In this document: one piece after another, positions 9,480 to 47,550 of the stretch
Layout of the letters: each line of letters begins with the position of its first letter
Position numbering within the stretch: the first letter of the stretch is position 1
NCBI RefSeq assembly: GCF_014280935.1
Contig: NZ_JACLZI010000044.1
Location: 62,001 to 126,000 of the forward strand
DNA: 64,000 nt
Origin: Aquibacillus kalidii
Lineage (GTDB): Bacteria; Bacillota; Bacilli; Bacillales; Amphibacillaceae
Direction of reading: 5' to 3'
Made by a program: the position numbers and the translations under genes
Notes under the pieces: model-generated
Databases searched by the model: none
What the model was told of the DNA's origin: nothing
What the model saw: the letters and a program-made list of their open reading frames with translations, nothing else

Positions 9480-9556
9480 AATAATCTCTCCTTACTACTT
9501 AGAAAAGAGCTAAGAATGTATTTCTTCTTGCCTCTATTGCTTAATACAAGCATAAA

Positions 9557-9570
9557 AGAAATCGCTTACA
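9557..9570. promoter_or_regulatory. cre-like site (CcpA) before the transporter operon
   Basis: AGAAATCGCTTACA fits the cre consensus TGWAANCGNTNWCA at every fixed position except the first. It lies about 80 bases upstream of the LplB-type gene, where it could repress the importer/GH42/GH31 operon when a preferred sugar is present. Confidence 0.6.
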
Positions 9571-9771
9571 AAAGATACGCATTAAACTAGACTAAAAATC
9601 ATGTAAAAACTAGATATTATCAAACAGTAAAATATAGACACATACGATGTGAATAAGACTATGAGCAAATAGAATAATTCACATTTTAAATCCTTCCCTT
9701 ACTAGAGTGTTGAGATAAACTCTCCAGTAACTAACTTTTTACAATCTTAATAAATGCTGATCAACCGTTCC

Positions 9772-9884
9772 GGAAATATACTACGCTTTCCGCGGGCTCG
9801 CGCTGAGCCTCCTCGGTCGCAAAGAACGCTCCCTGTGGGGTCTCACCGTCTTCGCTGTTCCCGCAGGAGTCTCCGTATATTTCC
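9772..9884 (+). repeat. 113-bp GC-rich structured repeat, copy 1
   Basis: A GC-rich block in AT-rich surroundings. Its ends are perfect 10-bp inverted repeats (GGAAATATAC and GTATATTTCC). Inside, TCCGCGGGC can pair with TTCCCGCAGG. The core (GAGCCTCCTC, AAAGAACGCT, GGGGTCT, GTTCCC, AGTCTCC) is shared with copy 2 at 9981-10093 in the opposite orientation, and both copies are exactly 113 bp. From memory such elements are scattered through Bacillaceae genomes; no function is known to me. Confidence 0.8.
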
Positions 9885-9980
9885 TCCACTTGCCTAATTT
9901 TCACAAAAAGAGAGATGTGCTTTTAATTAATTCATTTCAGGTATTAAGCTAAAATTGACTAGACAACACAATCCAGCGTA

Positions 9981-10093
9981 GGCAGAATACGGAGACTTCT
10001 GTGGGAACAACACGCGTCCGAAGACCCCGGAAGAAGCGTTCTTTGCTGATGAGGAGGCTGAGGCCGTGCCCACGAAAAGCGGAGTATTCTGCC
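9981..10093 (-). repeat. 113-bp GC-rich structured repeat, copy 2 (inverted)
   Basis: The second copy, reversed relative to the one at 9772-9884 and separated from it by 96 bp. Its terminal inverted repeat is GGCAGAATAC / GTATTCTGCC: different bases from copy 1, but again a perfect 10-bp match. Internally GTGGG pairs with CCCAC where copy 1 has GCGGG with CCCGC, a compensatory change. This points to a conserved fold rather than conserved sequence. Confidence 0.8.
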
Positions 10094-10194
10094 GAAGCAA
10101 GTGATCGCACTCATCAATTAAGTAATTATGAGAATTACTTACTGCATAGTCTATAGATATTGAGACGTAACAGCTGTACGAAAAGAGTCAAATT

Positions 10195-10231
10195 AAAAAA
10201 TCCAAGCACATCACCGTGTACATGGATTTTT
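10195..10231 (-). terminator. terminator after the DUF4340 gene
   Basis: On the minus strand AAAATCCATGTACAC / GTGATGTGCTTGGATTTTTT forms an imperfect stem ending in a T-run, directly after the DUF4340 stop codon. It would separate the regulatory operon from the transporter operon. Confidence 0.65.
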
Positions 10232-10237
10232 AATGGG

Positions 10238-46981: not shown

Positions 46982-47074
46982 AGAGGTAAGGGATCATGAT
47001 CCCTTACCTCTGCCCAGGCGAACGGCTATGACACTAAGTGCTCCCTCGCGGTTTTCCGCGTTCGCCAGTCACAC
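46982..47074 (-). promoter_or_regulatory. ZTP (pfl) riboswitch with terminator, controlling serA
   Basis: On the minus strand the two conserved halves of the ZTP/ZMP aptamer are present: GUGACUGGCGAAC, a GCGG-AAAA-CCGC hairpin, GGGAGC, a variable linker, then GCCGUUCGCCUGGGCA. Directly after comes a perfect 30-base palindrome (46982-47011, arms AGAGGTAAGGGATC) followed by TTTCTGTTT, a terminator that begins at the aptamer's 3' edge. ZTP binding should stop the terminator from forming and let serA be read. The element ends about 110 bases before the serA start. Recognition is by motif from memory. Confidence 0.93.
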
Positions 47075-47078
47075 ATAG

Positions 47079-47550
47079 TCTTGTCTTTTTAATTTGTAGA
47101 AAGGTATTGCAATAATTGAGCAGCTTTCCAATCTCAATACTTGTTGTATGAAATCTCTAGAATATATCAAAAAAGGCCTAAGAGATATAGTGCTCCTACC
47201 CTCTAGACCGACTTGGTTAAAGTATCCTATTTCACTCAAAGCAGAGCCCAAAATTAAGGGTTCCGTCAAATACTTTAATCGTAGTCCAGTTCTTGTAGTG
47301 GGAACTTGGTAGAGACACTCAGACCATATTACTGAATATATACGAGTAAATATTTAAATTGTATATGGATAATATAGCAAAGAACATGATTTAAATCAAC
47401 TATAACTTAATATTAAACGCAAAAAACATATAATCGTTCGCCTTTAAGTACACTTTGAAATAACTTACACCTCATAATAGTCGTTTTTCACTTCAGTGTT
47501 ACTTTATATTTTCAGAGATGGAATTCTAACATTAGATTAGATTTTAACGT
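47079..47550. other. intergenic region, serA promoter side
   Basis: About 470 bases between the riboswitch and the DUF305 remnant. A 66-codon frame on the minus strand (47069-47269) runs into the riboswitch and has no ribosome site, so it is not called. The serA promoter should lie here on the minus strand; I see no other feature. Confidence 0.5.

Follow-up and report, generated by a model that had tools for sequence, protein, structure and literature searches.

The two inverted 113-bp copies at positions 9772–10093 of the window (the whole 64,000-nucleotide stretch of Aquibacillus kalidii DNA analyzed here) belong to a larger unit of about 480 bp. The unit spans positions 9712–10189, is located between two operons and reaches beyond both copies. 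It is very probably a composite, non-autonomous MITE, most likely mobilised in trans by a transposase of the IS1595 family, with the hairpins as inherited modules. The preliminary description had treated the copies as two elements; two inverted 113-bp copies are present, however they are not independent and represent modules of one transposon-like unit. The parts of the unit are:

9712–9731, + strand: left end block of the P type, GAGATAAACTCTCCAGTAAC, a conserved 20-bp block that flanks one side of units in the A. kalidii genome
9772–9884, + strand: hairpin module A (type T1), with the terminal stem 9772–9781 / 9875–9884 and an inner stem at about 9788–9796 / 9860–9869
9885–9980, no strand assigned: inter-module spacer, which resembles the spacer of another T1-T4 unit (L003)
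9981–10093, − strand: hairpin module B (type T4), inverted relative to A, with the terminal stem 10084–10093 / 9981–9990
10139–10158, − strand: right end block of the Q type, ATCTATAGACTATGCAGTAA
10160–10189, − strand: degenerate outer terminal repeat, reading inward GACTCTTTTCGTACAGCTGTTACG (compare GGCTCTTTTCGTAAACTTTG in relatives)

The element ends at about position 10189. Only the right terminus is retained by the window copy, in degenerate form; the outer GGCTCTTTTC-like terminus expected further to the left is not recognisable in this copy, and no target duplication is demonstrable for it. There is no open reading frame of 90 aa or more within the unit (positions 9480 to 10237 checked), i.e. 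it displays the absence of coding capacity of a MITE. A terminator-like hairpin at positions 10196–10231, at the 3′ end of the right-hand gene, lies immediately beyond the element, and several other copies of the family likewise sit directly behind terminator-like hairpins.

The coordinates bear out that copies A and B are each exactly 113 bp in length. As had been described, the 10-bp terminal arms are perfect and specific to each copy (GGAAATATAC/GTATATTTCC and GGCAGAATAC/GTATTCTGCC), and an inner GCGGG:CCCGC in one copy is exchanged for GTGGG:CCCAC in the other. The identity between A and B is 74% over 101 bp (BLAST). Folding z values relative to dinucleotide shuffles are −2.98 to −3.26 for both strands of both copies, and 0 or 1 of 200 shuffles fold equally well. 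A covariance model of the family scores 129 bits on module A and 134.8 bits on module B, both modules being among the 26 copies from which it was built. The two copies are not a simple recent duplication, a possibility raised at the outset; A and B belong to separate hairpin types that have separate sets of relatives in the genome, and Radiobacillus has recognisable hairpins of both types. It had also been proposed that the head-to-head pair could form one large cruciform. When all 322 nt are folded as one single strand, the predicted energy is much lower than the sum of the two local hairpins (−144.1 versus −86.8 kcal/mol for RNA of the + strand, −78.1 versus −38.1 for DNA), thus one large cruciform appears energetically possible.

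A BLAST search with copy A gives 62 matches in the A. kalidii genome (4.25 Mb, 66 contigs), fragments counted, and some of these copies are interrupted by contig ends. The copies are at different, dispersed sites and display the same architecture with differing flanks. Many occur as inverted pairs of hairpins of two types on opposite strands, and the listed pairs are 292–465 bp across. In the units inspected, a P end closes one side and a Q end the other, each some 60 bp beyond the hairpins; it was possible to delimit 30 units, one locus being counted twice. Beyond P and Q there is a weaker motif, AGGCTCTTTTC..TTTGTTGCTTTTGACGCA, and the Q-end profile of these units includes shifted duplicates. 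The P or Q ends also occur at the borders or at the start of units with arrays of repeats of about 50 bp in place of the 113-bp hairpins (L033:540–1060, L043, L044, L046 and L055, all in the A. kalidii genome); some of these repeats are palindromic (TTCGCGACGTAAGCAGCCC...).

The hairpins fall into at least five types that differ in their terminal stems, which are GGAAATATAC, GGAAATTCAC, GCTCCGGGCAGTTG, GGCAGAATAC and GGAAAAAYRC. For four of the types (T1, T3, T4 and T5), best matches occur in Radiobacillus kanasensis, partly as fragments. The pairing of unlike (heterotypic) hairpins is a general rule of the family. None of 29 two-hairpin units of the A. kalidii genome pairs two hairpins of the same type, where 7.4 are expected by shuffling; the units were typed manually, with partial units included, and they share descent, so the significance relative to shuffling is overstated. 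At external loci, outside this genome, the stems are unlike in all 23 inverted neighbours, with 3–11 of 16 letters in common, and 22 of the 23 have the inward orientation of the window copy; a few of the second hairpins in these pairs rest on doubtful anchors (L116, L117 and L124). A perfect 300-bp palindrome is unstable, and this is perhaps why two unlike hairpins are combined. Genes are avoided: hairpin centres fall inside open reading frames of at least 120 aa for 4 of 90 external hairpins (10 of 100 were left out for place or flank limits), as against 1211 of 1800 random positions.

Several hairpins carry further sequences. A nested insert of about 55 bp, bordered by repeated AGGA, occupies an identical position in several hairpin types, and also in Radiobacillus (L004:1597–1653, L005, L012, L019 and L076:20048–20102). 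An IS110-family element lies within a Radiobacillus hairpin at CCCGCAG (L076:28236–29944), and a second hairpin of that genome is interrupted at the same point, next to another IS110 (L076:48290). In Evansella vedderi, a stretch of roughly 1 kb contains a run of five or more hairpins, which are of two kinds and lie in either orientation (L107:1340–2384).

Intact ends are found in relatives. The Oceanobacillus massiliensis MITE L103 has the plan of the window copy, i.e. a hairpin, a spacer and an inverted hairpin of another type between terminal repeats of the same kind. Unlike the window copy, which is decayed, its ends are intact and it displays an 8 of 8 duplication, TTTTCTAA. Terminal repeats together with a duplication of 7–8 of 8 positions were sought around 86 usable external hairpins (14 of 100 were left out for place or flank limits). 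They are present in seven, representing six units as both L103 hairpins are counted, and ten mispaired controls gave none. Ends of the GGCTCTTTTC or GGCTCTGTTA type are seen in five of these seven, and the two Lentibacillus hits have quite different ends. The other 79 hairpins do not display ends plus a duplication under the criteria used. Single hairpins between terminal repeats with perfect 8-bp duplications occur in Litchfieldia, a Bacillus MAG and Evansella. Among 12 stretches from the MAG and Litchfieldia, in seven a hairpin is enclosed by such ends and 7 or 8 of 8 positions are duplicated, at least three of these being elements already counted among the other external positives. In L219 the hairpin is accompanied by a match of 5 of 8, three stretches are without a partner end, and L221 is an IS1595 element.

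In the A. kalidii genome, four units with both termini recognisable have duplications of 6, 4, 6 and 7 of 8 positions relative to a background of 2.3, the other 26 of the 30 delimited units being excluded for a short flank or for want of two recognisable termini. A scan of 29 units of this genome gave no exact duplication at a fixed offset, probably because the end lengths vary. No empty site was found in relatives; the neighbouring gene, used as a DNA query, was matched in 0 of 30 other genomes.

The source of the transposase is suggested by L221, an IS1595-family element of 1447 bp with a 346-aa transposase, PF12762, family-like ends and an 8 of 8 duplication (AAATAGAA), and by L225 from Sediminibacillus, a second IS1595 element with such ends and an 8 of 8 duplication (TTAATGAA). 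They share with the hairpin MITEs the terminal repeats GGCTCTTTTCG.../GGCTGTTTTC..., which contain TTGTTG, and target duplications of 8 bp. This likeness is seen both with the end consensus of the A. kalidii units and with the ends of intact relatives, and the right end of L225 is that of one end of L103 over 27 bases. Unlike the hairpin MITEs, L221 and L225 encode a transposase and have no hairpin, thus the MITEs are not plain internal deletions of those elements. In the proposed process, an IS1595-family DDE transposase most likely recognises the GGCTCTTTTC... ends, duplicates 8 bp of target and moves in trans an element with the order terminal repeat, hairpin, spacer, inverted hairpin of another type, terminal repeat; the inner hairpins would retain their fold as their stems diverge between lineages by matched substitutions. 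For the relatives, there is good support for mobilisation in trans by a DDE transposase, and the window copy presumably moved in the same way. The A. kalidii genome has no IS1595 transposase, thus its copies are probably relics. IS1595 was found in 7 of 25 host genomes, mostly with other or unrecognised ends: L227 and L231 have different ends with duplications, and L228–L230 and L232 have no convincing ends.

Other origins were considered and rejected. ISL3, the first guess from the GGCTCTT ends, has no transposase in the A. kalidii genome; ISL3 transposases are present in 12 of 25 host genomes, with a matching end pair at 0 of 24 loci fetched. A phage origin finds no match in phages (blastn) or in viral contigs (exact pattern only). 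Matches to plasmids comprise five records. The record NZ_CP088021.1 (L076), which is labelled a plasmid, carries metG, tmk, holB, mfd, pth, rsmA and spo genes and by appearance is a piece of chromosome.

The preliminary description took the paired changes as a sign of selection for structure. The covariation is real. In 138 hairpins clustered into 27 arm classes there is an excess of pairing, with a mean of 5.5 Watson-Crick pairs out of 10 versus 2.96 when shuffled, a value reached by 0 of 5000 shuffles; slid registers give 2.3–3.2 pairs. Nine classes pair at 8 or more of 10 positions and 11 at 4 or fewer, some of the poorly pairing classes being shifted registers or doubtful anchors. With the arms of 100 external hairpins set against each other without gaps, the Watson-Crick fraction is 0.53 at offset 0 (0.30 expected) and 0.31 and 0.24 at offsets −1 and +1 (0.27 and 0.24 expected). 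A third stem is complementary at 5 of 5 positions, G-U allowed, in 34 of the 100 hairpins versus 4.9 expected. An alignment of 26 sequences, which were chosen and not random, has 31 invariant columns out of 146 and an inner stem with paired changes in 3 of 15 predicted pairs.

The covariation is however mainly between types. Within types (three untyped hairpins left out), 14 of 19 one-sided changes break the pair and 5 keep it; two-sided changes comprise 8 cells kept and 4 broken, the 8 representing about three inherited events. Stem sites differ from the consensus in 43 of 1330 cases and unpaired sites in 14 of 280, at most a weak difference. As within-type changes mostly break pairs, selection, if any, would act on the mobile lineage, and not demonstrably on an RNA serving the host at this site. 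Template switching within quasi-palindromes is a mechanism by which a polymerase corrects one arm from the other, and it may have produced the paired changes with no selection for structure at all. The changes would then come in one step, and the arms do differ wholesale between types and not by single compensations. However, core letters are conserved as well, both paired and unpaired (the invariant columns of the 26 chosen sequences), and mismatches within types are seen uncorrected, in a small sample. Template switching is thus regarded as rather unlikely.

The hairpin is homologous in sequence and fold to tsr24 (Rfam RF02577). Both display the core GAGACTCCTG-GGGA..GAAGACC..GCTGAG..CCC..GGAAAGCG; the tsr24 model gives 30–32 bits on both hairpins of L017 and matches several T4 and T3 copies at consistent model positions. 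The best score in the A. kalidii genome is 32.4 bits, which is below the curated gathering cut-off of 50. A reciprocal model made from Bacillaceae copies matches all 15 loci tried of the 30 returned by tsr24. Nine of 12 genomes searched with tsr24 were matched, five above the cut-off, and three genomes have 49, 33 and 24 matches. In Rfam tsr24 is an sRNA gene of S. aureus, whereas here it is a dispersed element. The available passages of the S. aureus USA300 study report 39 novel sRNAs, tsr1 to tsr39, and do not name tsr24 individually (PMC7392542). These sRNAs, the tsr24 homology and the strong stem covariation favor a structured RNA that serves the host, i.e. a regulatory RNA or sRNA gene under host selection as the Rfam label has it. 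Such a role is nevertheless improbable. The family has dozens of dispersed copies with differing flanks, and target duplications in relatives; tsr24 itself is multi-copy; one-sided changes within types mostly break pairs, and variation at stem and unpaired sites barely differs.

In one genome of group f33, presumably Staphylococcus, a unit is 99.9–100% identical over at least 1783 bp (four loci compared). It carries a transposase frame with the domains DUF772 and DDE_Tnp_1_6, and the hairpin precedes this frame by about 90 nt. We take this transposon to be of the IS1182 type. In Lentibacillus kapialis (L096 and L137), family hairpins lie between quite different ends (CCAAAATCTATGGTTGA) with duplications of 7 and 8 of 8 positions. 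A tentative proposal, which may well prove wrong, is that the hairpin is a mobile RNA module carried by unrelated DDE transposons, commonly as an unlike inverted pair, and that tsr24 is a piece of it and not a host sRNA gene. Its carriers would be the MITEs with IS1595-type ends, the Lentibacillus units with other ends and the end of the IS1182-type transposon. If so, the hairpin may guard elements against transcription entering from outside, and the Rfam sRNA would be recast as part of a mobile repeat.

In 113 of 133 hairpins (80 of 96 external, 33 of 37 from A. kalidii) the tsr24 strand gives the more stable RNA fold, several hairpins per species being possible and hairpins longer than 170 nt being dropped (4 of 100 external, 1 of 38 from A. 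kalidii). This bias agrees with an RNA role, but may merely reflect the conserved core. The tsr24 strand is opposite to the frame of the DUF772/DDE_Tnp_1_6 transposase; the better-folding strand thus does not lead the transposase message, which weighs against the simplest reading of the hairpin as a guard in a leader. The best guess at the job of the hairpin, one that is possible but doubtful, is that it folds at the RNA level and thereby protects the element against transcription from outside. A DNA fold that joins the element ends is a possible alternative.

The inverted hairpin pairs, together with two Y1_Tnp genes in the A. kalidii genome, recall REP/BIME-type elements moved by a RAYT (HUH) transposase. 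However, the hairpins are 113 nt in length, relatives have inverted ends and 8-bp duplications, and no family hairpin is seen by eye within about 1.5 kb on either side of the two Y1_Tnp genes (L077 and L078); an origin of this type is highly improbable. The two genes are solitary and RAYT-like (L077:1474–2235 and L078:1471–2040), and a small repeat, GGTGCCTGTCACC, lies near L078. As a MITE the element is of an ordinary kind, with an unusual interior of two unlike hairpins that is conserved and covarying, and with a wide spread. Bcr1, RUP, NEMIS and ERIC are not known to resemble the hairpin family in sequence. Like it, they are small, non-coding, dispersed DNA. Passages available from one source describe them as MITEs that fold, are transcribed and are mobilisable by transposases that recognise their ends (PMC3733652).

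Of 398 genomes sampled from the class, 123 have a hairpin matched by the covariance model, as do 36 of 146 genera; at most eight candidates were scored per genome, thus copy numbers from this survey are lower bounds. The exact core pattern is found in at least 110 stretches of named genomes, with 80 from Bacillus-like genera among the matches listed. A description of the family was not found in the titles and abstract openings of the literature searched, whose coverage leaves out most subscription journals. A repeat family of many Bacillus-like genera thus gains ends, a likely mobiliser and a fold. Its many natural compensatory variants would allow one to ask whether the hairpins are required for movement or for RNA shielding, or are dispensable, and why two unlike hairpins always pair. 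Elsewhere in the window, on the − strand, a purine riboswitch (positions 47262–47365) is followed by a ZMP/ZTP riboswitch (positions 47005–47082).
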